30,764 nt of DNA, from the IMG/VR virus record IMGVR_UViG_3300046001_003716, positions 1 to 30,764 of that record; one strand, given 5' to 3'. Source of the stretch: a virus. Position numbers and translations under genes: made by a program. Shown in pieces: positions 569 to 19,007 of the stretch (position 1 is the first letter of the stretch; every line of letters starts with the position of its first letter). The notes under the pieces are model-generated. The model did no database searches. It was not told the DNA's origin and worked only from the letters and a program-made list of their open reading frames with translations.

Positions 569-1006
569 ATGAAAAAATTACTTGCACTCTTGCTGATCGT
601 GCCTGTGCTGGCTGTTGCACAACCCCGACAAAAACCAGGCGTGACCTATGACGCTGTGATCACCAGAGTCATAGACGGTGACACTGTGGCTTTCCAAGCT
701 CCCTTTCTACCAGCACCACTCAAGCCTGAACTCAGCATCAGAGTTTTTGGTGTGGACACTCCTGAAAAAGGATTCCGCGCTCAATGTGCCAGTGAAGCAC
801 AGCGTGGAGAAGCGGCATCGGCCTTTACCAAAGCAGCCGTTGCCCAGGCTTCACAACGACAGGTTGTGCTCATGGACTGGGACAAGTATGGTGGACGTGT
901 GCTGGGAGATGTCTTGTTAAACGGACAGAGTCTGCGTCAAATGCTTATCGCCAACGGGTTTGCCCGCGAATACTACGGCGAAGCAAAGCAAAGTTGGTGT
1001 AATTAA
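569..1006 (+). CDS. Secreted staphylococcal-nuclease-like (SNase/TNase) protein
   Basis: This 145-residue protein has an N-terminal signal peptide (MKK, hydrophobic residues 4-17, AVAQ cleavage-like site), followed by an SNase fold. The family's key elements are visible: DGDT at residues 36-39, IRVFGVDTPE at 57-66 (the arginine, aspartate and glutamate of the active site) and KYGGRVLG at 107-114 (the second catalytic arginine). The family cleaves DNA and RNA with calcium. The signal peptide implies action in the periplasm or outside the cell, for example degrading host or competitor nucleic acid, or action during entry or lysis. It lies 8 bases after the fibre gene. The start has no clear Shine-Dalgarno sequence. 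Confidence 0.85.
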   Translation: MKKLLALLLIVPVLAVAQPRQKPGVTYDAVITRVIDGDTVAFQAPFLPAPLKPELSIRVFGVDTPEKGFRAQCASEAQRGEAASAFTKAAVAQASQRQVVLMDWDKYGGRVLGDVLLNGQSLRQMLIANGFAREYYGEAKQSWCN

Positions 1007-1021
1007 TCACTCATCAATAAC

Positions 1022-1044
1022 GGACATGTAAATACTGCATGTCC
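1022..1044 (+). promoter_or_regulatory. Inverted repeat with TAAATA motif over the start of the radical SAM gene
   Basis: GGACATG (1022-1028) and CATGTCC (1038-1044) are perfect 7-bp arms around a 9-base loop that contains TAAATA (1029-1034). The ATG at 1039 lies in the right arm. TAAATA resembles the core of T4-type late promoters (TATAAATA) and ends only 4 bases before the ATG. There is no Shine-Dalgarno sequence. Either a late promoter giving a leaderless transcript or a hairpin occluding the start codon is possible. Confidence 0.4.
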
Positions 1045-2187
1045 AATTTCTATTGCGCAGCCCCTTGGCGTGGCCTGCATATCAATCCCCGTGGTGATGT
1101 TAAAACTTGTTGTGCCGGCAACCCCAATCTGCTGGGCAACCTAAATTCACAACGCATTGATGAAATTCTCAACAACACAATCATGGCAGATGTTCGTGCA
1201 AGCATTTCACAGGGAAAACCACATGATTATTGTTCAAACTGCGTAAACGCAGAACGCTTTGGTGCAGACTCAGAACGTCAATGGCACAACAATGTAAATC
1301 CCAATTTTGATTATGCCACAGCCGGAGACCAGTATCATTATCCTGTTATTGTGGATGTGCGGTGGAATACAACTTGTAACCTAAGTTGCAACTATTGTGA
1401 TCCCAGCGCCAGCTCAAAATGGGCCGCACTCAAGCAAGTACCATTCCGGTCAGGCTCACGCCCGTACTACGAACAAGTGTGCGACTTTATAGAACAACAT
1501 CATGCTCACATACACGAAGTAGCACTCGTTGGCGGCGAACCCCTGCTACTGCCTGAAAACGAAAGACTGCTGGATGTTATCCCAGAATCAGCTATTGTTA
1601 CCTTGATTACCAACATGACTGTTGATTTGGAAAAGAATAAAATCTTTCGGAAGCTGGCACAACGTAAACGAGTCGGCTGGTCAATGAGCTTTGACAATGT
1701 GGGTGATCAGTTTGAGTATGTGCGATACGGCGGCAGTTGGGAAACCCTGCAACATAACCTAGCTATTGTTAAAGATCTAATGAAAAACAACGGACACTGG
1801 GGTGGCATACATGCAGTATACAACATTTACAATGCCACAAGATTACGTGAACTAAAACAATTTGCCCGGGACACAGACACCTCTATACTTTGGCAGAACT
1901 TGTTCCAGCCCAAGCACCTAGACCCATTTACTCACGGTGCCGGCGTTGCAAAACTTGCCGCAGATGAAATACAATACTTGTACGACAACAACTTGGTAAC
2001 AGAGTCTGAGCAGGTATTTTTTGATCAAGCACTTAAAACATACAATGAGCGCCTGGACATTGTCAAAGTATCTGATGTTGATATTGCGTTTTGGAAACAC
2101 ATCTACGATATTGAACACCGGTATCATCCTGACAAAGCAGGTGAATTTGTACGGCTTTGGCCTGAACTGGAGTTCCTATGCAAGTGA
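1039..2187 (+). CDS. Radical SAM protein with N-terminal twitch domain (copy 1)
   Basis: This 382-residue protein has the radical SAM cluster motif CNLSCNYC (C113, C117, C120), which binds the 4Fe-4S cluster that cleaves S-adenosylmethionine, and a GGEP motif at 165-168 for SAM binding. An N-terminal cysteine module (C6, C24, C25, C65, C68) precedes the core and matches the N-terminal twitch/SPASM-like arrangement known for the phage-associated twitch-domain radical SAM family. It probably carries an auxiliary Fe-S cluster. The substrate is unknown. It is followed, with a 10-base overlap, by a 2OG oxygenase-like gene and then a second paralogue, so the three are probably co-translated and act together. 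Confidence 0.85.
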   Translation: MSNFYCAAPWRGLHINPRGDVKTCCAGNPNLLGNLNSQRIDEILNNTIMADVRASISQGKPHDYCSNCVNAERFGADSERQWHNNVNPNFDYATAGDQYHYPVIVDVRWNTTCNLSCNYCDPSASSKWAALKQVPFRSGSRPYYEQVCDFIEQHHAHIHEVALVGGEPLLLPENERLLDVIPESAIVTLITNMTVDLEKNKIFRKLAQRKRVGWSMSFDNVGDQFEYVRYGGSWETLQHNLAIVKDLMKNNGHWGGIHAVYNIYNATRLRELKQFARDTDTSILWQNLFQPKHLDPFTHGAGVAKLAADEIQYLYDNNLVTESEQVFFDQALKTYNERLDIVKVSDVDIAFWKHIYDIEHRYHPDKAGEFVRLWPELEFLCK

Positions 2188-2717
2188 CCGCAGTTGATAG
2201 TGAAAACAATTTGTTTAGAGTTGAGAATGTATTTTCACAAAATCTCGTGGAGCAAGTGTTGTCAACTGACTGGATCAACCTGGCCTGGGATCGTCAAGAA
2301 GGACAAGAAAACTGGTTACGCAGACGTATACGCGATAGTGCAATACCTTGGTTAGCACAGTGGGATACTGAACTCAGGCAAGCATGGGACAGCATGTCAC
2401 AAGCAACTGGTTTTAAATTTAAGCCATATTTTGGAACTGCATTTTGGTTAGACGAGCCGGGGTTTACTTGTAGCATGCATACAGATGGCGAATTACCTGG
2501 CAGTCTGCACATGACTTGGGCAGGACCCGGCACAAGTTTTTACTGGCACAAAGACCCCAACACATTGCGTTATCGTGTGCTAGAGCAACCTAATGCAGGA
2601 TATATAATGATCAACCAGCCAGACAATACTGGTTATAGAAAACTACTATGGCATGCTATGTTAGAGCCATCACCAACTTTTAGACTTACGTCATACACAT
2701 GGATAATACCAGAATAA
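2178..2717 (+). CDS. 2OG-Fe(II) oxygenase-like protein
   Basis: This 179-residue protein has the residue pattern of the non-haem iron, 2-oxoglutarate-dependent oxygenase fold: HTD (H101, D103), a distal histidine (H159 in LLWHAML) and an arginine ten residues later (R169 in FRLTSY) that would bind 2-oxoglutarate. The family hydroxylates proteins, nucleobases, sugars or small molecules. No close subfamily is recognised. It is sandwiched between, and overlaps, two radical SAM genes (10 and 19 bases), suggesting a joint oxidative or radical tailoring step. The fold assignment rests on the iron-ligand pattern only. Confidence 0.6.
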   Translation: MQVTAVDSENNLFRVENVFSQNLVEQVLSTDWINLAWDRQEGQENWLRRRIRDSAIPWLAQWDTELRQAWDSMSQATGFKFKPYFGTAFWLDEPGFTCSMHTDGELPGSLHMTWAGPGTSFYWHKDPNTLRYRVLEQPNAGYIMINQPDNTGYRKLLWHAMLEPSPTFRLTSYTWIIPE

Positions 2718-3856
2718 CTGATAGCCCTACATTTTGTCCCGCACCCTGGACCAGTTTAAACATTGATCAAGCTGGACACGTGAGCCCGTGTTTCCATTGT
2801 GTGGAGATGGTTGGTAACAACAAAACTGACACAATACAAAACATTATCCATGGTCCTATTTTAACAAGCATGAGAGAAACTATGTCTCGTGGAGAATGGC
2901 ATTCAGGATGCAGTTGGTGCAAAAGTCTTGAAGAAACAACAGGCTCAAGCGGAAGGACTGTGCGGCATGCTGATCAAAGTACTCTAACAAAAATTAACAA
3001 TGATTTAGATTTTTTTGAATTGCAACATCTTGTTGTTAATTGGAGCAATTTGTGTAATCTTGCTTGTGTGTATTGTAATGATGAAACTAGTACAGCTTGG
3101 CAAAGCATTAACAAGATTCCTATTAATCATGTTAAAAATGAACACCAAGATTTGATAGAGCTAGCAACAACTCAAGGACACAACATACAAGGCCTTAGCC
3201 TAGGAGGCGGCGAGCCGCTGTTGCAAAAGGGACTTGACAAATTCTTGGATTATATTACCTCTAGCAAAGTAAACGTTATGGTCACAACTAATCTCAGCAT
3301 GGAACTTACTACAAACGTCATTTATCAAAAGTTAAAAACATGGCCTCATGTTGAGTGGATGATCAGTTTTGACAATGCTGACAAAGAAAAATTTGAATAC
3401 GTTAGACACAATGCTGACTGGGACCAGTTTGTAAAAAATATAAGACAATTAAAAGCTGATGGTCAGAAAGTAAAAGCGCACCCTGCGTATTCTATATATT
3501 GTGCATGGGATCTAGTAAAATATTATGATTTTTGTGTTGCCGAAGACATTGATATTTTTTGGTGCGAACTTAATCATCCTATTGAATTAGACATTAGACG
3601 GTATTCAGCCGAAGTACGTCAACGTGCTATAGAAGAAATTGACAAAGTGTTAGTCAAGTACCCCAAACGAGAAGAGCTTGGAACACACGCATTGGAACGT
3701 TACCGATTAACGTTACAGGACTCTGGGTACATTAATACTACAGACTATACACCACAGAATATTTTTGAGTGGACAGCCAACATAGAAAACAAGTTGAAGA
3801 AAACAAAAAAATTTCAAGACTTATGGTCAGAACTAGCAAGGGCAATAACATGCTAA
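2699..3856 (+). CDS. Radical SAM protein with N-terminal twitch domain (copy 2)
   Basis: This 385-residue paralogue of the protein at 1039-2187 has cluster motif CNLACVYC (C119, C123, C126) and GGGEP at 169-173. Its N-terminal cysteine module is C13, C31, C34, C71 and C74. Shared blocks include CPAPW/CAAPW near the N-terminus, MISFDN/SMSFDN and FEYVR. The two copies are far from identical, so this is an old duplication or independent acquisition, presumably with different substrates or sequential steps. It overlaps the oxygenase-like gene by 19 bases and the next gene by 7. Confidence 0.85.
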   Translation: MDNTRITDSPTFCPAPWTSLNIDQAGHVSPCFHCVEMVGNNKTDTIQNIIHGPILTSMRETMSRGEWHSGCSWCKSLEETTGSSGRTVRHADQSTLTKINNDLDFFELQHLVVNWSNLCNLACVYCNDETSTAWQSINKIPINHVKNEHQDLIELATTQGHNIQGLSLGGGEPLLQKGLDKFLDYITSSKVNVMVTTNLSMELTTNVIYQKLKTWPHVEWMISFDNADKEKFEYVRHNADWDQFVKNIRQLKADGQKVKAHPAYSIYCAWDLVKYYDFCVAEDIDIFWCELNHPIELDIRRYSAEVRQRAIEEIDKVLVKYPKREELGTHALERYRLTLQDSGYINTTDYTPQNIFEWTANIENKLKKTKKFQDLWSELARAITC

Positions 3857-4641
3857 CAGTGAAAGGAAAATCAATGGGAATATATAAGAATCCTCCATGG
3901 CATTTTGGAGTGTCGTGGGCTAACAAAACTTTAGATTTTTTGCCCACAGACTCAGAAGAAAATTTTAAAAAGTTGTGCGAAGTACCGGAGTTTTTGGAAT
4001 ATTTCAGAAGTCACGGTTGGCTTGAGCCAGGGGCAATCTCATACAAAATGAACAATTATGGTTTTCGTTGTGCAGAATTTGTTCCTGGGGAAGATTGTAT
4101 AGTTGCACTAGGCTGTAGTTTTACAGTTGGTATTGGGCTTCCAGTTGAAAGTACTTGGCCTGAACTGGTTGGTAAGGCCCTGGGGTTAAAAGTTTACAAT
4201 TTGGCCTGGGGCGGTAACGCAGCCGATACTTGCTTTAGAATGGCAGAATACTGGATACCACAACTGAAACCCAAGGCGGTGTTTATGCTAACGCCACCAG
4301 AATCTCGCGTGGAGCTGATGTTAGACTCAACAGATCAGCCTGCAGAGGTATTTTTTCCGTCAAATGAGATTTCGTACAATCACTTGGGTTTTGACAATTA
4401 CATTAAGCACTATTACACCAATGATGAAAACTCTAGATTAAATCACAAGAAAAATAAATTGGCAGTTAAAGCATTGTGTGACGAGCTAACCACTCCTTGT
4501 CAAATATATGACGCAAATAATCATATGGCCTGGTCTAGAGAAGAAGTTGGGTATGCTAGAGATCGTATGCATGCCGGCCCTAAAGGGCACAAAAGATTAG
4601 CAGGAATAATACTACATGATTGGCGCAAAAAGCACACTTGA
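3850..4641 (+). CDS. SGNH/GDSL hydrolase-like protein (copy 1)
   Basis: With the ATG at 3850 the product is 263 residues. It shows the blocks of SGNH hydrolases: GCSFTVG with the nucleophile S90, WGGN with N123, and DRMHAGPKGH with D238 and H241 near the C-terminus. Family members remove or add acyl groups on glycans, lipids or proteins. No signal peptide is seen, so it probably acts in the cytoplasm. The start is uncertain: an ATG at 3874, preceded by AAAGGA six bases upstream, is equally good and would remove eight residues. An in-frame ATG at 3769 lies deep inside the upstream gene and is unlikely. It overlaps the radical SAM gene upstream and the terminase gene downstream. Confidence 0.7.
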   Translation: MLTVKGKSMGIYKNPPWHFGVSWANKTLDFLPTDSEENFKKLCEVPEFLEYFRSHGWLEPGAISYKMNNYGFRCAEFVPGEDCIVALGCSFTVGIGLPVESTWPELVGKALGLKVYNLAWGGNAADTCFRMAEYWIPQLKPKAVFMLTPPESRVELMLDSTDQPAEVFFPSNEISYNHLGFDNYIKHYYTNDENSRLNHKKNKLAVKALCDELTTPCQIYDANNHMAWSREEVGYARDRMHAGPKGHKRLAGIILHDWRKKHT

Positions 4642-6205
4642 CACGGTACTTGTAAAAGCACCACACCGACGAGAAACCTACACTGAACAAGAACTTGACG
4701 AGTTCATGAAGTGTGCAGACCCGGTCACGGGTGCAATGTACTTCATGGATAATTTCTTTCACATACAACATCCTACAAAAGGTAAAATGTTGTATCATCC
4801 GTTTGAATACCAACGTAGGCTGATTGAGAACTATCACACCAATCGTTTTTCAATATCACTCATGCCTCGACAAACTGGTAAATCAACATCGGCTGCTGGT
4901 TACTTGTTGTGGTATGCAATGTTTGTTCCTGATGCTACTATTCTAGTTGCGGCCCACAAGTTCTTGGGCGCACAAGAAATTATGCAACGTATTCGTTATG
5001 CTTATGAATTGTGCCCCAATCACATTAGAGCAGGTGCCACAAGCTACAACAAAGGCTCGATAGAGTTTGATAATGGTAGTCGTATTGTTAGTCAAACTAC
5101 TACTGAAAATACTGGTCGTGGTATGAGTATTACACTTCTGTACCTAGACGAGTTTGCATTCGTTAGACCTACTATTGCCAGTGAATTTTGGACTTCTATT
5201 ACACCTACGCTGAGTACTGGTGGTAAAGCTATTATTACATCGACCCCAAACTCGGACGAAGATCAGTTTGCGTTAATTTGGAAACAAGCCAACAAGACTG
5301 AAGACGAGTACGGCAATCCAAGATTAGATGGTCTGGGCATTAACGGTTTTAAGGCATTCCGTAGTTTTTGGAAAGAGCACCCTGATCGTGATGACGCTTG
5401 GGCAAGAGAACAACGAGCACAACTGGGGGAAGAACGTTTCCGTCGAGAGATGGATTGTGAATTCGTTATTAACGATGAAACACTTATATCACCTCTTAAA
5501 TTACTGGATCTGGAGGGAGTAGAGCCTACTAGCAAAACAGGGCAAGTGCGCTGGTACAAACGAGTAGAAAAAGACAAGATGTACATTATTGCGCTAGATC
5601 CCAGTTTAGGCACAGGTGGAGATCCGTCGGCTATACAAGTATTTGAAGCTGAGACTACAGAGCAAGTGGCTGAATGGCGTCATAACAAAACTGACGTGCC
5701 TACGCAAGTTAAAATCATGGCAGAAATTGTTAAAACAATTTTTGAAACTGTTAAGAACGAGCAATCAATCTATTACTCAGTTGAAAACAATACACTAGGA
5801 GAAGCAGCTTTAATTTCTATCAATGAGTACGGGGAAGAGAATATTCCGGGGTATTTCTTGAGCGATAATTCAGTACAAGGCACATCTGGCCGCAGAATAC
5901 GCAAGGGATTTACCACTACCAACAAGAGTAAAATTGTAGCTTGTAACAAGTTAAAGATTTTGGTTGAGTCAGGCCGCATGAAAATTTACTCAAAATCTTT
6001 GATATCTGAGCTCAAGAATTTTGTGGCAATTGGCAGTAGTTATCAAGCAAAACCTGGGGAAACTGACGACCTAGTAATGGCAACATTGTTAGCAACTCGC
6101 ATGCTAATGCTGTTACAGACGTATCATGCAGACCTAGATTCTCACTTAAAAGACCACTCAGACAACATAGTTGAACCGTTCCCATTCATTTCATTCATAA
6201 GCTAA
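4616..6205 (+). CDS. 17: Terminase large subunit (gp17-like packaging ATPase/nuclease)
   Basis: This 529-residue protein is the DNA-packaging motor. The ATPase half has PRQTGKST (Walker A, residues 84-91), LLYLDE (Walker B with catalytic glutamate, 174-179) and TSTPN (coupling motif, 208-212). The nuclease half has ALDPSLGTGGDPSA (326-339), with D328 as the first metal-binding aspartate, VENN near 389, and TDDLVMA near 495. Length is close to cyanophage and T4-type gp17 (T4: 610). It starts inside the end of the SGNH-like gene (26-base overlap). Finding it downstream of metabolic genes rather than gp16 departs from the T4 order. Confidence 0.95.
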   Translation: MIGAKSTLDTVLVKAPHRRETYTEQELDEFMKCADPVTGAMYFMDNFFHIQHPTKGKMLYHPFEYQRRLIENYHTNRFSISLMPRQTGKSTSAAGYLLWYAMFVPDATILVAAHKFLGAQEIMQRIRYAYELCPNHIRAGATSYNKGSIEFDNGSRIVSQTTTENTGRGMSITLLYLDEFAFVRPTIASEFWTSITPTLSTGGKAIITSTPNSDEDQFALIWKQANKTEDEYGNPRLDGLGINGFKAFRSFWKEHPDRDDAWAREQRAQLGEERFRREMDCEFVINDETLISPLKLLDLEGVEPTSKTGQVRWYKRVEKDKMYIIALDPSLGTGGDPSAIQVFEAETTEQVAEWRHNKTDVPTQVKIMAEIVKTIFETVKNEQSIYYSVENNTLGEAALISINEYGEENIPGYFLSDNSVQGTSGRRIRKGFTTTNKSKIVACNKLKILVESGRMKIYSKSLISELKNFVAIGSSYQAKPGETDDLVMATLLATRMLMLLQTYHADLDSHLKDHSDNIVEPFPFISFIS

Positions 6206-6215: not shown

Positions 6216-8033
6216 ATGTCAACAACAAACACACTATCACAGCAAATGCTTGATCTATTAGCTACCCGCAATTTCCACCCTGAAATGCTGGACAAAATGG
6301 GCAAGCCTACCACAGCAGAGAACGCAAAAACCTTTACCTTTGACTATGAGTCTGGCACTGGGAAAAATTACGGAACAATGGTAATTGTGTTGGACGTGGA
6401 TAACGACATGAAAATCATGTACGGTGATAATTTGGGTCGTACCATGGAAGGTGATGACAAACAAGAATTCTTTGATTTTATACAACACCTAAATCAAAAA
6501 GCCACAAGCAATCGCTGGACTCACACTATACAAGACATCAATCAGCTCAAGCACACCATGCAAGGTATGGCAGCTATCCAGGAAGGATTGTTTGAGGGAT
6601 ACTACGGAACTCGCAACATCAGCTATGCTGGACAGCCAACTGAAGCAAGATTGCGAATTGTTCATAGTCAAACTCTAGGTGAAAATGACGCACGTTATCG
6701 TCATATTGCCAAACTGTTTGTTGAAACAGCCGACGGAGAAGTGTTTAAACTAGGATTTCGTAATCTAAGTGGCGGCAAAGCTATGTTAGAACATGTGCGC
6801 CAAGGCGGCAAGCCGTACGATATTCGCGGCAATCATATCACTGAAATGGTTAACGAGATTGCAGTACTGGGACGATTTAACCGCGCCAGCGCGACTCGAA
6901 TCCTTGAAGGATCAACGCAGGAATTGATTACAGAAGCCCAACAGTATTACAAGAGCCTGCGTGAAAATCTCAAGCATCTTGGCTCAAGTCGTGGGTATAA
7001 CCGATATTTTGAGTCGTGGCACCCAGCCACAATTAATGAACAAGAAGGTATTGTTGACAATATCAAAACTTTGTTTATTGAACAAACAATTGACAGTCGC
7101 ATCGAGGCTGCACTGCCGTTATTGGCACGTATACAACAAAAAGGACAACAAATGAAAGAAGCTGACATTTTTGAATCATGGGTCAACAGTATCTCTGAAG
7201 GTACCTGGACCTTGCCAGAAACACCCGAACAATTAAACAAACTCAAAGAGTTGATGGCCACAGAACTTATTGTGGGACCTGATGCTACTAACGCAACAGA
7301 AGTCTTGTATGATATTGTGGGAGATGATATCTTGTTTGACCGTTTGCATGAACTAGCAGATCGTGACCCACGTGCAAATGCATGGAATGATACCGAAGTT
7401 ATTAATCGTCTTAAAGATCTTGGAATTGATTTACCTGAAGAAACAGCGCCTGTTGAGGATCCAACTGCTGCCCCTGCGCCAGTTCCTGCTGAGCAGCCAC
7501 CAATGGCGCCTATAGAAACACCGGCACCACCAGTTGCTGAAGAACTCAACCAGATGCGTAAAGCAGCCGGGTTACCTGTAGTTGAATCTATACTTGACGA
7601 ATCTGGCGAAACATTGCAACACATTTTGGACCGTTTTAAATTTGAAACTACTCAGTTCCAACAAGGTGGTGAACTTGATAGCGACTTGTATGAAGCGTTG
7701 TTTGATTACTACTCAAGCAAAGGCGAAATGCCTTATGGTGTTGCCAAGGCCCGTGATGGTGATCCGCATAATTGGGTTAGTGACAAATTAGGTCAGCATC
7801 TTGGAGTTGACGAGAGCAACAGCGGAATGATCATGCCTGAAGCTGATGTAATCAACACGTTTGAAGTCATGCCTGGATTCGAAGCACCCACAGTTGAAGG
7901 TAGTTGCAACATGACAGCCGAAGGTGAGTACTGTCCAGAACACGGCTTGATGGAGTGCGGTGGCGGTATGTATGAGTCTCGTGAAGGCGATGCTGTTTTG
8001 GCAAGAATAAAATCACTAGCTTTAATCAGATAA
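6216..8033 (+). CDS. Unknown 605-residue phage protein
   Basis: I do not recognise a named family. The first 240 residues look folded and mixed alpha/beta, with a block around residues 155-215 rich in RYRHI, LFVETADGEVFKL, GGKPYDIRGNHI and EMVNE that resembles conserved unknown proteins of marine T4-like phages. Residues 405-440 form a proline/alanine/glutamate linker. The C-terminus holds a small cysteine/histidine motif (SCNMTAEGEYCPEHGLMEC, near 565-583) that could bind zinc, and ends with ARIKSLALIR. It lies 10 bases after terminase and ends before a terminator and the gp32 leader. A structural or DNA-handling role is possible but not shown. It is not the tail sheath. Confidence 0.6.
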   Translation: MSTTNTLSQQMLDLLATRNFHPEMLDKMGKPTTAENAKTFTFDYESGTGKNYGTMVIVLDVDNDMKIMYGDNLGRTMEGDDKQEFFDFIQHLNQKATSNRWTHTIQDINQLKHTMQGMAAIQEGLFEGYYGTRNISYAGQPTEARLRIVHSQTLGENDARYRHIAKLFVETADGEVFKLGFRNLSGGKAMLEHVRQGGKPYDIRGNHITEMVNEIAVLGRFNRASATRILEGSTQELITEAQQYYKSLRENLKHLGSSRGYNRYFESWHPATINEQEGIVDNIKTLFIEQTIDSRIEAALPLLARIQQKGQQMKEADIFESWVNSISEGTWTLPETPEQLNKLKELMATELIVGPDATNATEVLYDIVGDDILFDRLHELADRDPRANAWNDTEVINRLKDLGIDLPEETAPVEDPTAAPAPVPAEQPPMAPIETPAPPVAEELNQMRKAAGLPVVESILDESGETLQHILDRFKFETTQFQQGGELDSDLYEALFDYYSSKGEMPYGVAKARDGDPHNWVSDKLGQHLGVDESNSGMIMPEADVINTFEVMPGFEAPTVEGSCNMTAEGEYCPEHGLMECGGGMYESREGDAVLARIKSLALIR

Positions 8034-10333: not shown

Positions 10334-10593
10334 GCGAAGCAATAGCAGCAGAAATTTGGGGCGAACTCAAGCGTTACGTTAACACAGTTGACCGCGCCGA
10401 GGCAGCTGAAACAGTAATACAAATCTTAATGGATAACGATAGTGACGTAGAAGATATCCGTGCAGCCTTTACTGGCGATCGAGACATCAAGACAGCATTA
10501 ACTGCGTATCTTGACAACGATAAAGACTATGTTGAAGAGGAAGAGGAAGAGGAAGATTCTGACTACGACGAAGACGAAGACTGGGAAAATTAA
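10330..10593 (+). CDS. Small acidic-tailed protein coupled to UvsX
   Basis: This 87-residue protein has an alpha-helical N-terminal part (about 1-65) and a strongly acidic end from about residue 62, including runs of seven glutamates and alternating D/E/Y. It starts in an ATGA overlap with uvsX and so is translationally coupled. No family is recognised. Acidic tails of this type often bind basic DNA-binding proteins or mimic DNA, so a partner or regulator of UvsX, UvsY or gp32 is a reasonable guess only. Confidence 0.65.
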   Translation: MSEAIAAEIWGELKRYVNTVDRAEAAETVIQILMDNDSDVEDIRAAFTGDRDIKTALTAYLDNDKDYVEEEEEEEDSDYDEDEDWEN

Positions 10594-11843
10594 TGTCCCA
10601 AAAGTTTTTTCCTATTGCTACAGATACTGCTTGTCAACTAAAGTGGACTTGGAGTACCATTCATTTGTACACGGGTAAAACAAAGTCTTGTCATAGAGTT
10701 AATAGTAGCGATATAGATTCAGAAAATTTTTCTAGTTTTCATAATACTCCTAAAAAGATTGCTGATCGCAAACTAATGTTAGCTGGGCAATGGCCCACAG
10801 GAGGCTGTGAATATTGTAAGGATATGGAAAGTTCGGGAGGACAAAGTGACAGGCAGTTTCATCTACAAATACCTGACCTATCGCCTCCTGAACTCGACAC
10901 TGATCTAACAGCAACACATGTAACTCCTAGAATTGTTGAAGTGTATCTTGATAATACATGCAACATGAGCTGCATTTACTGTTGGGACGGATTTAGTAGT
11001 CGTATACAAAATGAAAACGAAAGATTTGGTAAGTTTGAATCGCATGGTGTAACCATTGTTAACACAGCAGTAAAACACCCCCAAAATACTAAATTACAAA
11101 CAGAGTTTTGGACTTGGCTTGAATCTAACTATCAAGATCTTCGTAGATTGCACATTCTTGGCGGAGAACCATTTTTTCAATCACAATTTGAAACTTGCTT
11201 GGAATTTCTAGAATCTCACAATAATCCTGAATTAGAATTTAACATTGTAACCAATCTCAAAATATCTAAAACAAAACTAACTGAGTTTGTGCAACGTGTA
11301 CGTAAATTACTAATTCAACGCAAGATTAAACGTCTTGATATAACTTGCAGCATTGACTGTTGGGGGCCTGAACAGGAATATATCCGTTATGGATTTAATC
11401 TTGAGCAATGGAAACAAAACTTTGAATATCTAGTAGAACAGCATTGGATCACACTCAATATCAATCAGACCATTACAGGCCTGGGCATAAAGTCCATGGA
11501 ATCGTTGTTAGAATACATTAATCAACACAGAGCTACACGAAAGATAGGACATTATCATATGGCTGTGGTCGATAATCAATATTTTAATCCTAGCATATTT
11601 GGTCCAGGATTTTTTGATGAAGATTTTGAAAAAATACTACAGGTGATGCCCAATGACGAATGGCAACACCAAAATAGTCGCAACATGATGAAGACATTGC
11701 AGTTGCAGTGCAATCAAAATACTCGTCAAGAAGATCAGTTGATTAAACTTAGAGTTGTGCTTGATGAACTTGATCGTCGCAGAAATCTCAACTGGCGTAT
11801 AACATTCCCTTGGTTAGTGAAAGAATTAGAACATGTGGTATAG
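10593..11843 (+). CDS. Radical SAM protein with N-terminal twitch-like domain (copy 3)
   Basis: This 416-residue protein has CNMSCIYC (C123, C127, C130) and GGEP at 190-193, giving the radical SAM core. The N-terminal cysteines C14, C33, C72 and C75 (GGCEYC) match the twitch module of the two copies at 1039 and 2699. It is the most divergent copy, has an extra segment around residues 140-165 and lacks the CPAPW opening. It starts on the last base of the acidic gene's stop codon and ends 11 bases inside uvsY, an unexpected place for a metabolic enzyme. Confidence 0.8.
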   Translation: MSQKFFPIATDTACQLKWTWSTIHLYTGKTKSCHRVNSSDIDSENFSSFHNTPKKIADRKLMLAGQWPTGGCEYCKDMESSGGQSDRQFHLQIPDLSPPELDTDLTATHVTPRIVEVYLDNTCNMSCIYCWDGFSSRIQNENERFGKFESHGVTIVNTAVKHPQNTKLQTEFWTWLESNYQDLRRLHILGGEPFFQSQFETCLEFLESHNNPELEFNIVTNLKISKTKLTEFVQRVRKLLIQRKIKRLDITCSIDCWGPEQEYIRYGFNLEQWKQNFEYLVEQHWITLNINQTITGLGIKSMESLLEYINQHRATRKIGHYHMAVVDNQYFNPSIFGPGFFDEDFEKILQVMPNDEWQHQNSRNMMKTLQLQCNQNTRQEDQLIKLRVVLDELDRRRNLNWRITFPWLVKELEHVV

Positions 11844-12285
11844 TAGAGTAGTTGCTGACCTTGGTGCGATTCCAGATTTTGTTTCACACTACGAAAACGA
11901 ACTCAATGAAGCCAAGAAAGATTGTAAAATTGGTGGATTGGTTGAAAAAAACATCAGTGCTCTCCCGGGTATAACTGAGCATCGCTTTAACCAACTACAA
12001 GAGATTGAAGCGGTGCTTAACTATCTTAATATTCAACTTCGAAAAATTCGTAGGAAACATTTTCAAAAGTATCTGGAAGGATATGCTAGAGCATTGACCA
12101 GCAGAGATGCTGAAAAATATGTAGACGGCGAAGATGAAGTTATTGACTACGAAACTATTATAAACGAAGTAGCATATTTGCGTAATCGCTGGTTGGGCAT
12201 TCTTAAGGGACTAGATTCCAAGCAATGGCAAATGGGTCATATTGTACGCCTAAGAACTGCTGGCATGGAAGACATCCAGGTGTAA
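11833..12285 (+). CDS. uvsY: UvsY-like recombination mediator
   Basis: This 150-residue, mostly helical, basic protein ends with the pattern seen in marine T4-like UvsY: a segment with ALTSRDAEKYVDGEDEV, then INEVAYLRNRWLGILKGLDSK and a closing GHIVRLRTAGMEDI. T4 UvsY (137 residues) forms hexamers that help UvsX displace gp32 from ssDNA. The location two genes after uvsX and four after gp32 supports the call. Confidence 0.8.
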   Translation: MWYSRVVADLGAIPDFVSHYENELNEAKKDCKIGGLVEKNISALPGITEHRFNQLQEIEAVLNYLNIQLRKIRRKHFQKYLEGYARALTSRDAEKYVDGEDEVIDYETIINEVAYLRNRWLGILKGLDSKQWQMGHIVRLRTAGMEDIQV

Positions 12286-12292
12286 ATACCTG
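12277..12292 (+). promoter_or_regulatory. Inverted repeat with TAAATA at the uvsY stop
   Basis: CAGGT (12277-12281) and ACCTG (12288-12292) flank a loop containing the uvsY stop codon. TAAATA (12283-12288) ends 5 bases before the ATG at 12294. The sequence GTAAATAC is identical to that before the first radical SAM gene (1028-1035). It is a possible late promoter for the glycan cassette, giving a leaderless mRNA. Confidence 0.4.
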
Positions 12293-12293
12293 C

Positions 12294-13058
12294 ATGAAAA
12301 TCGTACTTGTAACCGGCGGCTTTGATCCGCTACACTCTGGACACATTGCTTATTTTAAAGCAGCCCGCACCTTGGGCGACATGCTGATTGTGGGACTTAA
12401 CTCAGATGAATGGTTGACTCGTAAAAAAGGTCGACCATTCATGCCCTGGACGGAAAGATTGTGTGTGATAAACAATCTTGCCATGGTAGACGAAGTGTAC
12501 ACATTTGACGATGCAGATGGCTCGGCTAAAGAATTTATTCGACAAGTTCGAGCACACTACCCTGACGCAACGTTGGTATTTGCCAATGGTGGTGATCGCA
12601 CTGACAAAAACATTCCTGAAATGGATGTGGTAGATGCCAATTTAGAATTTGCATTTGGCGTGGGCGGCGAGGATAAAAAGAATTCTAGTTCATGGATTCT
12701 TGAAGATTGGAAAAAGCCCAAGACACACCGAGCTTGGGGATACTATCGTGTGTTACACGAAGTTGGTGCCAATACCAAACTAAAAGAACTTACTGTTAAT
12801 CCCAAAACATGTTTGAGTATGCAACGTCATGACAAACGTGCAGAATTTTGGTTTGTGGCCGAAGGAGAAGCCACAGTGTACACAGTAGATCCGCACAGCA
12901 CAGATCGTGACCTAATGGCCAGTCCTGCCAAGCACCAATCAACTTGGATTAAATTAAACGAGTGGCATCAGCTATGTAATGAAACTGATGAACCGTTAAA
13001 ACTAATTGAAATTCAGTACGGAGAAAACTGTGTTGAAGAAGACATTGAGCGTAAATGA
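12294..13058 (+). CDS. Cytidylyltransferase-cupin fusion protein
   Basis: This 254-residue fusion begins with a nucleotidyltransferase of the glycerol-3-phosphate cytidylyltransferase/RfaE-C type: GGFDPLHSGH (8-17, the HxGH motif), KKGRPFMPWTER (44-55) and KNSSSWIL (129-136) in place of the usual ISTT signature. The C-terminal part (about 150-254) is a cupin like the phosphomannose-isomerase domain of bifunctional ManC enzymes: SMQRH (175-179), AEFW with E184, and NEWHQL with H225. It may activate a sugar or polyol phosphate with CTP and isomerise its sugar. The domains are recognisable but the pairing is unusual. The longer frame from 12225 lies in uvsY and is rejected. Confidence 0.8.
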   Translation: MKIVLVTGGFDPLHSGHIAYFKAARTLGDMLIVGLNSDEWLTRKKGRPFMPWTERLCVINNLAMVDEVYTFDDADGSAKEFIRQVRAHYPDATLVFANGGDRTDKNIPEMDVVDANLEFAFGVGGEDKKNSSSWILEDWKKPKTHRAWGYYRVLHEVGANTKLKELTVNPKTCLSMQRHDKRAEFWFVAEGEATVYTVDPHSTDRDLMASPAKHQSTWIKLNEWHQLCNETDEPLKLIEIQYGENCVEEDIERK

Positions 13059-13738
13059 AAGCTATCCCTGTATACATTGGCTACGACCCGCGCGAAGCAA
13101 TTGCGTTCCACACCTGTGCAAATTCTGTCATTCGCAACTCTAGTAGACCTGTAGCTATTATTCCTGTAGCCTTAAACTTATTTAAAGACTACAGCGAAAC
13201 ACACACAGATGGCAGCAATCACTTTATCTACACACGCTTTCTTGTACCACATCTGCAAGAGTATACAGGCCACGCTATCTTTATTGACGGGGACATGATT
13301 GTTTGCGCCGACATTGCAGAGCTCTGGGATCTACGTAACCCTGCACTAGATGTGCAAGTGGTCAAGCATGACTACAAAACTCGGATGCCTGTAAAGTATC
13401 TAGGAGCAAAAAATGAAGACTATCCTCGAAAAAATTGGAGTAGTGTTATTTTGTGGAATTGTAATAGCTTCCCTAACAGAAAACTTACACCTGAGTTTGT
13501 ACAAAAATCCACTGGTAGTGAGCTCCACCGCTTTTCTTGGCTAGATGATGAGCGCATAGGTGAGTTACCGAAAGAGTGGAACTGGTTGCCTGATGAATAC
13601 GGGCCAAATCCAGATGCCAAATTGTTGCATTACACCCTCGGTACTCCGTGCTTTCATGAGTTTGCTGACACACCACAGAGTGAAGATTGGCACAGAGAAC
13701 GTATTCTAACAGAATACTGTCAACAAAGAGATATATGA
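13055..13738 (+). CDS. Glycosyltransferase, GT-A/GT8-like
   Basis: This 227-residue protein starts with IPVYIGYDPREAIAFHTCANSV, a typical opening of GT8-type enzymes, and has the metal-binding DGD motif in AIFIDGDMIV (D78, D80). NPDAKLLHYTLGTPCF near the C-terminus resembles the second metal-ligand region with a histidine. It transfers a sugar from a nucleotide donor. The acceptor is unknown. It is joined to the fusion gene upstream and the next gene downstream by four-base ATGA overlaps, so the cassette is one operon. Confidence 0.8.
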   Translation: MKAIPVYIGYDPREAIAFHTCANSVIRNSSRPVAIIPVALNLFKDYSETHTDGSNHFIYTRFLVPHLQEYTGHAIFIDGDMIVCADIAELWDLRNPALDVQVVKHDYKTRMPVKYLGAKNEDYPRKNWSSVILWNCNSFPNRKLTPEFVQKSTGSELHRFSWLDDERIGELPKEWNWLPDEYGPNPDAKLLHYTLGTPCFHEFADTPQSEDWHRERILTEYCQQRDI

Positions 13739-14721
13739 GCGAAGAAATTGAAGATCAAGATGCGTCAGTGCCGTTACCTCCTAGGCATGTGTTTGATATG
13801 GTACCTCCAGATATCAAAAAATTGTTTGAAGACATACTCAAATATCGGGTAGATCCAGCAGCCTGGTGCTACGGAGTAACATTAGAAAATTTAGTTACAC
13901 AGTTACATGGGTTGCGAACAAATGCAGTTATTGCGTTGGCAATAGAACCTGGAGAAACAAAATACAAGGAAAAAGGGCACATGTACGATCCATTTTTACA
14001 AAGTTTTATACTAGGTGCTGGTGGACAGATTAGCACTTGGAAGCGTGATAGTGTTAGCACTGCACCGGTTGTGTTAAGAGGCATAACAAAACGTAAGGAA
14101 ATGCAAGCATGTCGCGATCAAAATAGGGATTTTTATTACATTGACACAGGTTATTTTGGTAATGGTCGAAAGAAAACATATCACCGTGTTACTAGAAACG
14201 ATGTACAGAATTTTGGGCCTATTATTGAACGTCCTGCTGACAGGTGGGCAGCAACCGGTGTACGGTTAAAAAAGTTTCGACCAGGCACAAATATTTTATT
14301 GGCACCGCCCAGTCAAAAATTATTAAATTTATACAATATCAATCTTGAAGATTGGATAGATAAAGTTCAAGCAGAAATACGATCGCACACTGATCGTCCA
14401 ATTGTGGTTCGAGAAAAACAAAGTCGCAGTGTTCGTCAAAGTACAGACACTATGGAAATGGCATTGGAGCAAGATGTTCATTGCTTGGTAACATTTAGTA
14501 GCATTGCTGCTGGCGAAGCGTTACTCAATGGCAAACCAGCTATTACCCTAGGACCTAATGCTGCTGCCCCACTTTGTAGTCAGACTATTAGCGCAATTGT
14601 TGACCCACATATTCCAACGCTTGATGAAGTTGAGAGATGGGCAAGACACCTGGCATATTGTCAATTTACAGAACCTGAAATGAAAGATGGTACCGCCTGG
14701 CGGATACTCAATGACCACTGA
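13735..14721 (+). CDS. Capsule-synthesis-like (GT-B type) protein, paralogue A
   Basis: This 328-residue protein starts at an ATGA overlap. The C-terminal half has TDRPIVVREK, VHCLVTFSSIAAGEALLNGKP and AITLGP, a pattern seen in capsule polysaccharide synthesis proteins and related GT-B transferases, where a nucleotide sugar sits near the SS-E motif. It is clearly related to the minus-strand protein at 17395-18195 (shared NRDFYYxDxGY, RPADRW, HTDRPI, HLAYxQF and DGTAxRIL). It probably transfers a sugar or alditol phosphate. The exact family is uncertain. Confidence 0.6.
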   Translation: MSEEIEDQDASVPLPPRHVFDMVPPDIKKLFEDILKYRVDPAAWCYGVTLENLVTQLHGLRTNAVIALAIEPGETKYKEKGHMYDPFLQSFILGAGGQISTWKRDSVSTAPVVLRGITKRKEMQACRDQNRDFYYIDTGYFGNGRKKTYHRVTRNDVQNFGPIIERPADRWAATGVRLKKFRPGTNILLAPPSQKLLNLYNINLEDWIDKVQAEIRSHTDRPIVVREKQSRSVRQSTDTMEMALEQDVHCLVTFSSIAAGEALLNGKPAITLGPNAAAPLCSQTISAIVDPHIPTLDEVERWARHLAYCQFTEPEMKDGTAWRILNDH

Positions 14722-15640
14722 TGTAATAGTATATGTTAGCAGTGTAGCTAACCCCAAAAAACATACAAGAAAAATTGAATGTTTAGAAAGTTTTGCCGCA
14801 GGCGCAAAACGTGCCGGTGCGTCAGTTCATGTTGAATGGGCCAACCGTTATCAGCCTAGCAAGTTAGCTGTTATTTTGGGATGGGCAACCACGAACACAG
14901 GCGGTCCAAACATACAATTAAGAAAACAGATCATCGCCGAACAACAACGACACGGGTTCAACACCATGTGTATTGATGCAAGCTGTTTTAAATACCTTGA
15001 CAATCACGGCACATATTTAAGATACAGTCTTGGTGGTCCGTTCTATGATCGAGCTGAATATGCTAATAAAAATAGCTCAGACGTTAAATGGTTAGAAATT
15101 AGTAATGCGTTAAAAATCAAATTAGCTCCACCACAGCACAACGCTAGTGGTCATATCTTGATATGCATGCAACGAGACGGCGGCTTTTCTATGAAGTCTC
15201 TTGACCCTATCACCTGGTTAAAAGAAAAAATTGTACAAATCCGTGCCAACAGTATCAAACCAATTATGGTACGCCCGCATCCTGGTGCGTACGATCCCAA
15301 AGATTTTGACATATTTAGATCTAAACACTATCGCGATAGGCTTGACGTACATATTATTGACCCAAGCACTACACGATTAGTAGATAACTTACGTGGAGCC
15401 TATGCCGCAGTATTTTTTAACAGTTCGGCAAGTGTGGCAGCAGTGTGTGAAGGTATACCAATATTTGTTGATGATCGCAGTTGCGTGAGTTGGGATGTGG
15501 CCAATACTGATATTACAAAAATAGAATCGCCCCAGATGTTTGCTAGAGATCAGTGGATCAACAATCTAGCGGCAGCACACTGGAGCGATCAAGATGCACA
15601 AGCAGGCCGCATCTATCAAAAGTTCAAGCTGTTTTTTTAA
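14711..15640 (+). CDS. Capsule-synthesis-like (GT-B type) protein, paralogue B
   Basis: This 309-residue protein starts at ATG 14711, eleven bases inside the previous gene. The longer frame from 14687 adds residues with no support. It has IMVRPHPGAYD (a histidine-proline motif common in this class) and AAVFFNSSASVAAVCEGIPIFVDD, which corresponds to the SS-xAxEA region of paralogue A. It is more distant from A than A is from the minus-strand copy. The end converges on, and overlaps by 17 bases, a minus-strand methyltransferase gene. Confidence 0.55.
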   Translation: MTTDVIVYVSSVANPKKHTRKIECLESFAAGAKRAGASVHVEWANRYQPSKLAVILGWATTNTGGPNIQLRKQIIAEQQRHGFNTMCIDASCFKYLDNHGTYLRYSLGGPFYDRAEYANKNSSDVKWLEISNALKIKLAPPQHNASGHILICMQRDGGFSMKSLDPITWLKEKIVQIRANSIKPIMVRPHPGAYDPKDFDIFRSKHYRDRLDVHIIDPSTTRLVDNLRGAYAAVFFNSSASVAAVCEGIPIFVDDRSCVSWDVANTDITKIESPQMFARDQWINNLAAAHWSDQDAQAGRIYQKFKLFF

Positions 15641-16190
15641 CTACAACAATATCATAGTTGTGACCTTTGACCCAGTTCCATTTATCAGTTTTGTCAAACA
15701 CGCTGATTTCTTCCCAGACAATCTTAACTCCCATAACTGTCTCTACTTTGGCTCGCCACCACTCAGGTAGTTCCACAATCAAGTGAGCATTACGTCCATC
15801 AGGCAATTTCTTCTTAGCTGGATAACAAGCAATTCTAAAAAAGCCACAGCGATCCATTTTACTACTAATCATGCGCAAGGTCTCGTCTAGGTAAGCAGGC
15901 TCAATATGCTCCAACGCATCAGTGCTAACAATAGCGTCAAATGTTCTGTCAGGTAATCTTGCAAATTCGGGGTTACCAGGGTCATATCCCTCAGACACAA
16001 TTCCTGGATTCAGTTCCCTAACACTAGCAATTAGCGCACCTTTGCCACAACCAAAATCCAGTACACTAGTTGGTTGATAGTCCTTGAAAAATTTATCTAC
16101 TATTCGGTAGGCTTTGTAACCGTTATTGAATTTGCCTTTGGCATGCATACGGTTCAGTTGTTTTTGATAGTCAGCGTCTATTAGTGTCAT
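15624..16190 (-). CDS. Class I SAM methyltransferase
   Basis: This 188-residue protein has the SAM-binding motif VLDFGCGKGAL (43-53), then FDAIVSTDALEHI and a GFFRIACYPA strand, the usual order of class I small-molecule methyltransferases. The substrate is unknown, but its position among glycosyltransferases suggests a sugar. It is the last gene of a five-gene minus-strand block and overlaps its upstream neighbour by 20 bases. Confidence 0.8.
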   Translation of the reverse strand: MTLIDADYQKQLNRMHAKGKFNNGYKAYRIVDKFFKDYQPTSVLDFGCGKGALIASVRELNPGIVSEGYDPGNPEFARLPDRTFDAIVSTDALEHIEPAYLDETLRMISSKMDRCGFFRIACYPAKKKLPDGRNAHLIVELPEWWRAKVETVMGVKIVWEEISVFDKTDKWNWVKGHNYDIVVVKKTA

Positions 16191-16764
16191 TGTTCATCCA
16201 ATCAGGGTTATAAGGTCTGTCTCGAAACCACCAGTGAAGCTGGGAACCTTGCCAGTCACTGAAAAATTCTCTGTACCAGTCTTGACTGCGTTCAGCAGAA
16301 AAGTATTGTTTGTTGTATATTTGTTTTTTGGCCTTAGGCGATTTAACGTGCATTCCAATAAAACAAGCAACACCAGTTAAATTCATCAGCCGTTGTTTGA
16401 CCCAGACTAAATCATCGTCAGGGATGTAGGTCAACACTTGATTGCATATTACTAGATCATATTTTTGATCGGGTGGCTCAGTGGCAAATTCTGCAACACA
16501 AGGATCGTACTGGAATACGCTGTTTACATCAAGATAGTCAACAAACTTCATTAATGTAGTGTTGGGCCAAAATGTTGTAGGTTCTGCCCACTGGTGTCCT
16601 TTGCCGCATCCGTAATCAATTACAGTGTTGCAATTGTAATAGTGCGCTACATCTCTTATTTGTCTATGATATGAAAATGTATCTTTGCCGTCCCAACTTT
16701 TATTTTGTTGCTGAAACTGAGCACCTAACTCAACTGACTCTTGATAATAAGAACTTACTGCCAT
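16171..16764 (-). CDS. Class I SAM methyltransferase, second copy
   Basis: The ATG at 16764 gives 197 residues. A TTG twelve bases further upstream is possible but weaker. TVIDYGCGKGHQW (47-59) is the SAM site and YDLVICNQVLTYIP the motif after it. It is distantly similar to the neighbour at 15624-16190, so the pair may modify the same or successive positions of one glycan. A long aromatic C-terminus (HWWFRDRPYNPDW) is distinctive. Confidence 0.75.
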   Translation of the reverse strand: MAVSSYYQESVELGAQFQQQNKSWDGKDTFSYHRQIRDVAHYYNCNTVIDYGCGKGHQWAEPTTFWPNTTLMKFVDYLDVNSVFQYDPCVAEFATEPPDQKYDLVICNQVLTYIPDDDLVWVKQRLMNLTGVACFIGMHVKSPKAKKQIYNKQYFSAERSQDWYREFFSDWQGSQLHWWFRDRPYNPDWMNNDTNRR

Positions 16765-17402
16765 CCCATGATCCAATCGTCCTTGACTTGATCTAGTTTA
16801 ACCATACCCCAGGATTCTAGTAATCCAACAGCGGCAAATTGTCCGTAATCTTTGCTGTAGGCATCGTGTGGTTTCTGTTCAATTACTACAACAGGCCGGC
16901 AGCGGCGAATTGTTTGTTCTGCCCCTTGTAACACACGATACTCAAATCCTTCGCAATCAATTTTGATGTAGTCAACTATGGGTAATTCTAGACTATCTAA
17001 ACGTGTGATATTTGTATCACCAGCAGTACTATTGGGATCAACATGAGTATGGCCAGTGTTGCCCTCAGTGATGATCATGTTGATCATGCCTTCGTGATCG
17101 CCTAGGGCAATAGATTGAACTTGCAAATTTTTAGCAAACACATTTCTTGCTAAACATTCTCTAAACATAGCAACAGGTTCAAATGCAATCACAGTATCAA
17201 ATCGTTTTACTAAATCACGACTCCATAACCCAACATTGGCACCAATATCCAGTGCTACCCTGTTTTGTTTTATGTGATTAAAACTTCGACGTCTAACTTG
17301 ATACTGATACTCAGTTGGGCCGCCCTTGCTTACGCTTTTGGCAAGCATTTTGGGAAAGTGGTCTTCGGTATCCGGGAACCACCACCCGTGGCTTTCATAC
17401 AT
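16755..17402 (-). CDS. FkbM-family methyltransferase
   Basis: This 215-residue protein has the family's signature order: ALDIGANVGLWS (50-61), VIAFEPV, then TRLDSLELPIVDYIKIDCEGFEY and VLQGAEQTI. FkbM enzymes O-methylate sugars and natural products, and are frequent next to glycosyltransferases in surface polysaccharide loci and in phage glycan islands. It overlaps the following methyltransferase by 10 bases and the preceding gene by 8. Confidence 0.88.
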   Translation of the reverse strand: MYESHGWWFPDTEDHFPKMLAKSVSKGGPTEYQYQVRRRSFNHIKQNRVALDIGANVGLWSRDLVKRFDTVIAFEPVAMFRECLARNVFAKNLQVQSIALGDHEGMINMIITEGNTGHTHVDPNSTAGDTNITRLDSLELPIVDYIKIDCEGFEYRVLQGAEQTIRRCRPVVVIEQKPHDAYSKDYGQFAAVGLLESWGMVKLDQVKDDWIMGWQ

Positions 17403-18195
17403 TTTGTGTCTCCTGTAATATTCTTGCGGCTGTGCCGTCTCTTAATTCGTTAACGTGAAATTGGCCATACGCTAAGTGACATGTCCATGCATGTCGTTCG
17501 TCGTCAGTGGGAAACCATGGTGAATCAATTTTTGATAAGTCTGTGTTTGATACTGGAATTGCAGCGTTACAAGGTGCAAGTGCAAACGCTGGTACCCCAG
17601 CCAATACGCTTTCAGTGGCTGCAATTGAGTTGTAAGTTACAACAGCATGCACATCGCCTAGTGATGATTCTAGACTGTTGTTAATTCGTGTTTGCCGATT
17701 GGGATTACGCTGCCGAATTTCTATAGGCCTATCTGTGTGCATTTTTATAGTGGCAATTGTGGAGTCAATCCAGGAATCTAAATCAATGTTGTAAAATGTA
17801 CATGGTTTAGCATCTGGTGCAGCCACTAGTATTTTACTGCCTGTTCGGCGCGGCTGCATTTTTATCCCTAGTTTTTGCCAACGATCTGCTGGCCTAGAAA
17901 TTACCGAGCCGTGCTGTAAATTATTGAGCACTATCCTATGCCAAAATTTCCAACCGTGTGGATTAATAGCACTGATGCGATTACCTACATATCCAGAATC
18001 CATATAGTAAAAATCTCTATTGTTGTCCCAACAGCGTTTGATGATTTTGTGTTTCATAATGCCACGTATGACTAATGGTGCTGTGCTATCTTGGTATTGC
18101 CATGTTTCTAAACAAGTTGGAGTTGCGCCAGACCCTTGAGCAAACATATCAATGTACTCGTCAGAGTTGTTTTTGCTTAAGAATATCCAGTTCAT
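17395..18195 (-). CDS. Capsule-synthesis-like (GT-B type) protein, paralogue C
   Basis: This 266-residue, shorter relative of paralogue A lacks about 65 N-terminal residues. Shared blocks are APLVIRGI, NRDFYYMDSGY, SRPADRW, KMHTDRPIEIRQ, VTYNSIAATESVLAGVP, HLAYGQF and DGTAARIL. The opposite strand placement shows that the pair was not made by simple tandem duplication. It is translationally coupled to the upstream glycosyltransferase by a four-base overlap. Confidence 0.6.
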   Translation of the reverse strand: MNWIFLSKNNSDEYIDMFAQGSGATPTCLETWQYQDSTAPLVIRGIMKHKIIKRCWDNNRDFYYMDSGYVGNRISAINPHGWKFWHRIVLNNLQHGSVISRPADRWQKLGIKMQPRRTGSKILVAAPDAKPCTFYNIDLDSWIDSTIATIKMHTDRPIEIRQRNPNRQTRINNSLESSLGDVHAVVTYNSIAATESVLAGVPAFALAPCNAAIPVSNTDLSKIDSPWFPTDDERHAWTCHLAYGQFHVNELRDGTAARILQETQNV

Positions 18196-18995: not shown

Positions 18996-19001
18996 GTGAG
19001 A

Positions 19002-19007
19002 TATTTA
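19002..19007 (-). promoter_or_regulatory. Late-promoter-like TAAATA for the minus-strand block
   Basis: Read on the minus strand the sequence is CTAAATATCTCAC then ATG (18995), with 6 bases between TAAATA and the ATG and no Shine-Dalgarno sequence. It is the only intergenic space (12 bases) between this block and the divergent gene at 19008, so any promoter for the five minus-strand genes must overlap it or lie in the divergent gene. Confidence 0.4.

Follow-up and report, generated by a model that had tools for sequence, protein, structure and literature searches.

The question raised by this locus is what two radical SAM enzymes and an oxygenase would do together in a run of genes that ends in the large terminase gene of a phage. 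The stretch of DNA analyzed (the window), a fragment of 30,764 bases, comes from an uncultured T4-like virus and encodes a T4-type terminase as well as gp32-, UvsX- and UvsW-like proteins. Five genes on the + strand overlap end to end: rSAM1, OG, rSAM2, an SGNH-like gene and TerL. The description in the initial annotation of two N-twitch radical SAM genes that overlap a 2-oxoglutarate (2OG) oxygenase gene on both sides is reproduced in coordinates and overlaps (10 nt for rSAM1/OG, 19 nt for OG/rSAM2), and the run does continue through the SGNH-like gene into terminase, with TerL as its last gene. The features referred to below are as follows.

1022 to 1044, + strand: inverted repeat with a GTAAATA motif, overlapping the rSAM1 start codon (motif conservation, flank complementarity)
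1039 to 2187, + strand: rSAM1, core gene of the cassette, N-terminal-twitch radical SAM protein (209.1 bits with NF033640, cut-off 170)
2178 to 2717, + strand: OG, optional second gene, predicted 2-oxoglutarate/Fe(II)-dependent oxygenase (invariant residues, model, fold matches)
2699 to 3856, + strand: rSAM2, optional second N-twitch radical SAM enzyme (199.5 bits, cut-off 170)
3874 to 4641, + strand: SGNH/GDSL-like hydrolase or acyltransferase, optional (weak Lipase_GDSL_2 match, conserved blocks)
4616 to 6205, + strand: TerL, T4-type large terminase, last gene and anchor of the overlapping run (Pfam, PHROG)
10593 to 11843, + strand: rSAM3, third N-twitch radical SAM gene (228.5 bits, cut-off 170)
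12225 to 20563, no single strand: sugar-type gene cluster (Pfam and PHROG matches)

The NCBIfam model NF033640 (N_Twi_rSAM, twitch domain-containing radical SAM protein) describes the whole protein, and its curated cut-off is passed by rSAM1, rSAM2 and rSAM3, which have in common with it an N-terminal twitch followed by CxxxCxxC. SPASM-type and Radical_SAM domains (Pfam) are present in rSAM1 and rSAM2 alike. The residues C113/C117/C120 together with C6, C24, C25, C65 and C68 are invariant among 45 relatives of rSAM1, as are C119/C123/C126 together with C13, C31, C71 and C74 among 22 relatives of rSAM2; both the CxxxCxxC for the SAM-binding cluster and the cysteines of the predicted N-terminal auxiliary cluster are kept. 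Judged by their sequences, the three phage proteins belong to the N-twitch radical SAM family. The model itself names no reaction, and the phage genes differ in forming a terminase-linked module and in reaching 2 to 13 matches in each cassette-bearing record. The rSAM1 twitch domain (residues 4-70) gave a weak profile match to BtrN (E 0.0013), a twitch radical SAM dehydrogenase of an aminoglycoside pathway, in which the twitch is C-terminal (match at chain residues 187-257), whereas that of rSAM1 is N-terminal. BtrN acts on a carbohydrate-like substrate. The best folds for the rSAM1 model included the peptide-modifying anSME, SkfB and ChlB, tied with BlsE, DesII, MoaA and viperin; as a pointer to the reaction the fold was set aside, with peptide, sugar and nucleotide enzymes all at Z 9-10. 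A profile scan of GTDB contigs returned no bacterial relative of rSAM1, and cultured phages gave no match at 1e-5, the matches in Vibrio phages being marginal.

For OG, no convincing match was found in Pfam, NCBIfam or PHROG, and a sequence search of the PDB (as well as one of cultured phages at E 0.01) was without match. The residues H101-x-D103, H159 and R169, equivalent to the HxD...H iron ligands and the distal Arg for 2OG, are invariant among 38 relatives. An AlphaFold2 model built from the alignment of these relatives (pLDDT 95.8) was matched by Foldseek to 2OG-Fe(II) oxygenases (AlkB, P4H, PHD2, PolD) with a probability of 1.00, and VIA-align gave Z scores of 15.0 for PasI, 14.4 for PolD and 13.9 for a bacterial prolyl-4-hydroxylase, so close to one another that the substrate class is not readable from the fold. 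The double-stranded beta-helix fold, with Z scores that reach 15.0 and an rmsd of 2.8 over 167 residues, agrees with the oxygenase assignment of the initial annotation, for which a lack of fold support would have been a refutation, and OG is predicted from its invariant residues and its model to be a 2OG-Fe(II) oxygenase. Among predicted viral structures, one protein of an uncultured phage was close (TM 0.93, 38% identity); the others were mostly generic viral 2OG oxygenases.

The gene after rSAM2 had been called SGNH hydrolase-like, and a GCS block, a Gly and a DxxH block of this putative SGNH protein are invariant among 29 relatives; the Pfam Lipase_GDSL_2 match is weak (1.9e-4, under the cut-off) and the Asn of block III was not identified. 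Its open reading frame extends from a GTG at 3769 to 4641, with the ATG at 3874 as the start indicated by the relatives. TerL matches Pfam Terminase_6N/6C and phrog_36964 (E ~1e-118). The structural protein encoded 3' of TerL (window 6216-8033, phrog_13484) has a C-terminal tail with a CNMTAEGEYCPEHGLMECGG Cys/His motif that resembles a zinc knuckle and is kept in loci L005 and L073.

With OG, rSAM1, rSAM2 and TerL as baits, about 190 IMG/VR loci were collected, and arrangements were counted over 69 loci that are non-redundant at 97% TerL identity. The gene rSAM1 precedes TerL in 69/69. The commonest arrangement is rSAM1-TerL alone (25/69), and the full sandwich rSAM1-OG-rSAM2-SGNH-TerL was found in 15/69; the others are rSAM1-OG-SGNH-TerL (9/69), rSAM1-OG-TerL and rSAM1-SGNH-TerL (8/69 each), rSAM1-rSAM2-SGNH-TerL (3/69) and rSAM1-SGNH-OG-TerL (1/69). 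Among the 69 loci OG is present in 33, rSAM2 in 18 and SGNH in 36, in an order that is nearly always fixed, with OG directly 3' of rSAM1 in 32 of its 33 loci. When TerL was the bait, rSAM1 was present in every locus with a TerL identity of at least ~77% and enough upstream sequence, and roughly half of the loci at 72-75% TerL identity were without it. The sandwich is one variant of a modular cassette whose conserved unit is rSAM1-TerL. The co-occurrence of the three genes across phages, which the initial annotation had named as a check, is confirmed as a recurrent trio and not as strict co-occurrence: contrary to a fixed unit, OG, rSAM2 and SGNH are added or dropped by lineage. Only rSAM2 is always accompanied by SGNH (18/18, Fisher 6e-7), an association that on independent pairs gave a mean of 5.6 in the same direction, 0 opposite and a median p of 0.03; the associations of OG were not significant after the independent-pairs correction.

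The cassette junctions are nearly all overlapping, and very few exceed 60 nt. The median dN/dS was 0.09 for rSAM1, 0.09 for TerL, 0.09 for rSAM2 (5 pairs only), 0.14 for SGNH and 0.26 for OG. These values and the arrangement counts place rSAM1 in the core of the clade's gene set, about as constrained as TerL, and mark the other genes as interchangeable additions, of which OG evolves fastest. On the TerL tree the six groups of accessory content need at least 32 changes, as expected for surface variation. The order of the genes is conserved, as are their reading frames, and purifying selection acts on them, so that the observation is far beyond chance.

The start of rSAM1 lies within the inverted repeat GGACATG-N9-CATGTCC (1022-1044), with GTAAATA at 1028-1034, 4 nt 5' of the ATG, and no clear Shine-Dalgarno sequence was found at this start. 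In 53-54 of 67 readable loci GTAAATA stands 4-5 nt before the rSAM1 ATG; 75 of the 101 copies in the 69 loci stand before an ORF start, and the flanks are complementary above shuffled flanks. A second copy in the window (12275-12296) precedes the cytidylyltransferase gene, with an inferred start at 12294: CAGGTGTAAATACCTGC-ATG. The element may act as a variant late promoter, from which the message would start almost without a leader, or as a hairpin in the RNA; in either case the terminase operon would begin with rSAM1. The slot 5' of rSAM1 (window 569-1006; also L032, L049 and L082) holds alternative nucleases of the SNase or NucA type with signal-like N termini. OG was present in 0/10 of the loci with the NucA type and in 18/31 others (p 0.002, uncorrected for kinship).

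Within the window, rSAM3 lies just 5' of a sugar-type cluster that comprises a cytidylyltransferase and a mannose-6-P isomerase-type cupin (12225-13058), a GT8 gene (13055-13738), FkbM and other methyltransferases (15624-17402, - strand) and GT-like genes (18192-18995, - strand; 19766-20563, + strand). One type of cassette (L039) has further genes between SGNH and TerL, namely a member of the family termed A6, another SGNH-like gene and one for a GDP-mannose 3,5-epimerase (E 6.5e-91 against solved GMEs). At a second place in L110, an rSAM2 paralogue (48% identical), SGNH, an OG homologue and an O-carbamoyltransferase are consecutive and overlapping (hhalign 94.0 for SGNH and 98.7 for OG). The T4-like virus records L109, L110 and L111-L113 carry arrays of 5-6 closely spaced N-twitch radical SAM genes, in L109 and L110 with carbamoyltransferase, amidinotransferase, SGNH and 2OG-like genes and in L109 also with an AMP-ligase (~16 genes). 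A search with one array radical SAM protein had an Elusimicrobia MAG as its sole bacterial match; an Elusimicrobia MAG contig (L198 3199-21680) carries more than 10 different radical SAM-like genes, N-twitch types among them, over 18 kb. The cultured jumbo Vibrio phage K566 (OZ196521.1; L196 13549-20285), which lies outside the cassette clade, has four N-twitch-type genes, two above and two below the cut-off, among GT8/GT4-like genes. An A-type Fe-S carrier was present in 4/10 records. The A6 family, with a (T)EK-x-x-KP...DESYD motif, is a frequent neighbor of N-twitch genes (e.g., L007 5832-6860, L109 12206-13318): in ten records, 38 of 73 N-twitch genes have an A6 gene no more than 2.5 kb away, compared with 11 by rotation, a figure that is indicative only, because these records are related to one another. 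No informative match to A6 was obtained in Pfam, NCBIfam, PHROGs or the PDB, and its candidacy as a glycosyltransferase was dropped for want of support there.

The reading preferred here, to which we assign about an even probability, is that the module is expressed late and carries out a multistep tailoring of a surface-type glycan or a nucleotide-sugar precursor, of the virion or of the host; genomic context is its basis throughout. A glycan or nucleotide sugar is favored because of the weight of the neighbors, namely the epimerase of the L039 type, the trio recurring in L110, the arrays, the glycosyltransferases of K566 and the position of rSAM3 by the sugar cluster; the dependence of rSAM2 on SGNH and the accessory turnover on the TerL tree also fit. 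The enzymes would act on a common substrate. In the first step rSAM1 would make a common intermediate by SAM cleavage and hydrogen abstraction, its N-terminal twitch cluster perhaps handling an electron, by analogy with twitch dehydrogenases such as BtrN. Where present, OG could then hydroxylate the intermediate or oxidize another C-H bond, rSAM2 could add a second radical step, and SGNH could remove or transfer an acyl group. Gain and loss of these three genes would give lineage-specific variants of the product, and the outcome would be an altered surface-sugar chemistry on the virion or the infected host, possibly serving surface variation; the late-operon position slightly favors the virion surface over that of the host. 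The initial proposal of a multistep tailoring pathway in a phage late region is thereby supported by recurrent co-location, the second trio and the all-or-none relation of rSAM2 and SGNH. Among the three substrates that it names, the gene neighborhood speaks most for the glycan, the RiPP-like peptide has no precursor gene in the cassette, and for the modified nucleotide the near-tie of PolD and PasI with other folds is uninformative.

Against the glycan reading, the search of the window's own cassette found no glycosyltransferase, the frequent neighbor A6 lacks support as one, the conservation of rSAM1 near that of TerL fits a conserved (protein) substrate equally well, and the rSAM1 fold matches include peptide-modifying enzymes, though tied with the others. 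In its main rival, somewhat improbable in our estimate, the substrate is a structural protein (of the tail adhesin, head or neck) whose side chains are altered by rSAM1, OG and rSAM2; OG would have the part of a prolyl or lysyl hydroxylase, and sites for later glycosylation might arise in this way. Such a role suits the structural late region adjoining TerL, the equal constraint on rSAM1 and TerL (dN/dS 0.09), the prolyl hydroxylase match of OG, which is about as good as any (Z 13.9), and the presence of anSME, SkfB and ChlB among the fold and profile neighbors of rSAM1, but it leaves the epimerase, carbamoyltransferase and amidinotransferase neighbors unexplained. The small precursor that the initial annotation had suggested looking for was not found: the nearly always overlapping cassette junctions leave no room for one, and the clustered neighbors include no conserved Cys-rich small ORF (at least 50 aa). 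A RiPP precursor beside its maturase was accordingly rejected, the conserved small neighbors being structural-looking. The type of upstream YadA-like adhesin showed no association with cassette content, a null result that is weak because only 3/41 loci are adhesin-positive. Protein tailoring can be combined with the glycan reading, a residue being hydroxylated and then glycosylated. In a related and rather doubtful proposal, rSAM1 would be a core virion-maturation enzyme of the clade that modifies some part of the virion by radical chemistry, and OG, rSAM2 and SGNH would elaborate the modification. If this were true, the packaging operon would carry its own post-assembly chemistry; to our knowledge, no virion modification made by a radical SAM enzyme was known before.

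There are two further readings. Synthesis of a secondary metabolite from a sugar or an amino acid in the course of infection is improbable: arrays with amidinotransferase, carbamoyltransferase, AMP-ligase and radical SAM genes do resemble antibiotic pathways, and a metabolite is among the products proposed for a jumbo cyanophage cluster (PMC7824862), but the cassette is without such scaffold-making genes and without an exporter, and a fixed coupling to TerL would be odd for a diffusible product. Nucleotide or DNA modification, with a hypermodified base as its product or a chain terminator of the ddhNTP type directed against the host, is very improbable. The top structures for OG, PasI (Z 15.0) and PolD (14.4), both belong to nucleoside antibiotic pathways, but the prolyl hydroxylase is nearly tied with them; the viperin-type matches of the radical SAM proteins are weak (28.9 and 40.8 bits with NF038283, cut-off 180), for which reason identity with viperin (ddhNTP synthase) was rejected; and the cassette is not among nucleotide-metabolism genes.

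Several reported gene sets come near to the cassette. A study on jumbo cyanophages describes a carbamoyltransferase/2OG/halogenase cluster of 8-12 genes, with polysaccharide decoration or a metabolite as proposed role (PMC7824862). Phage-borne 2OG oxygenases and carbamoyltransferases are shared with the present work, whereas radical SAM is absent from its text, the cluster is not a compact overlapping cassette, and the passage on it describes no terminase link. Pelagimyophages have radical SAM cassettes in a host-recognition cluster (PMC7029224), and the T4-like TARA_ERS488813_N000010 has 12 radical SAM genes (PMC5332604); as here, these are T4-like, aquatic phages with many radical SAM genes near tail-fiber and glycosyltransferase genes, but both sources list genes only, and in the parts available neither mentions a partner oxygenase, a fixed order or a coupling to terminase. 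The latter also reports radical SAM-rich T4-like phages with an A-type Fe-S carrier (PMC5332604), in agreement with the 4/10 records above. Viral communities rich in radical SAM genes together with glycosyltransferases and RmlD have been described (PMC7150976). The open-licence literature, with subscription papers mostly outside its scope, yielded no paper on the function of the N-twitch family and no description of a terminase-linked radical SAM/2OG cassette.

In the sources used, no reaction is assigned to N-twitch radical SAM proteins and no role in phages to such chemistry, and single records of aquatic T4-like phages contain as many as 13 matches to the family. A compact cassette of near-fixed order, with a defined partner oxygenase and nested combinations of genes, narrows the substrates to a short, testable list, and its variants form a natural pathway series. 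The cultured Vibrio phage K566, with its N-twitch genes among glycosyltransferases, is an entry point for laboratory work, and the reaction, if demonstrated, would tell what radical chemistry is for in phages.
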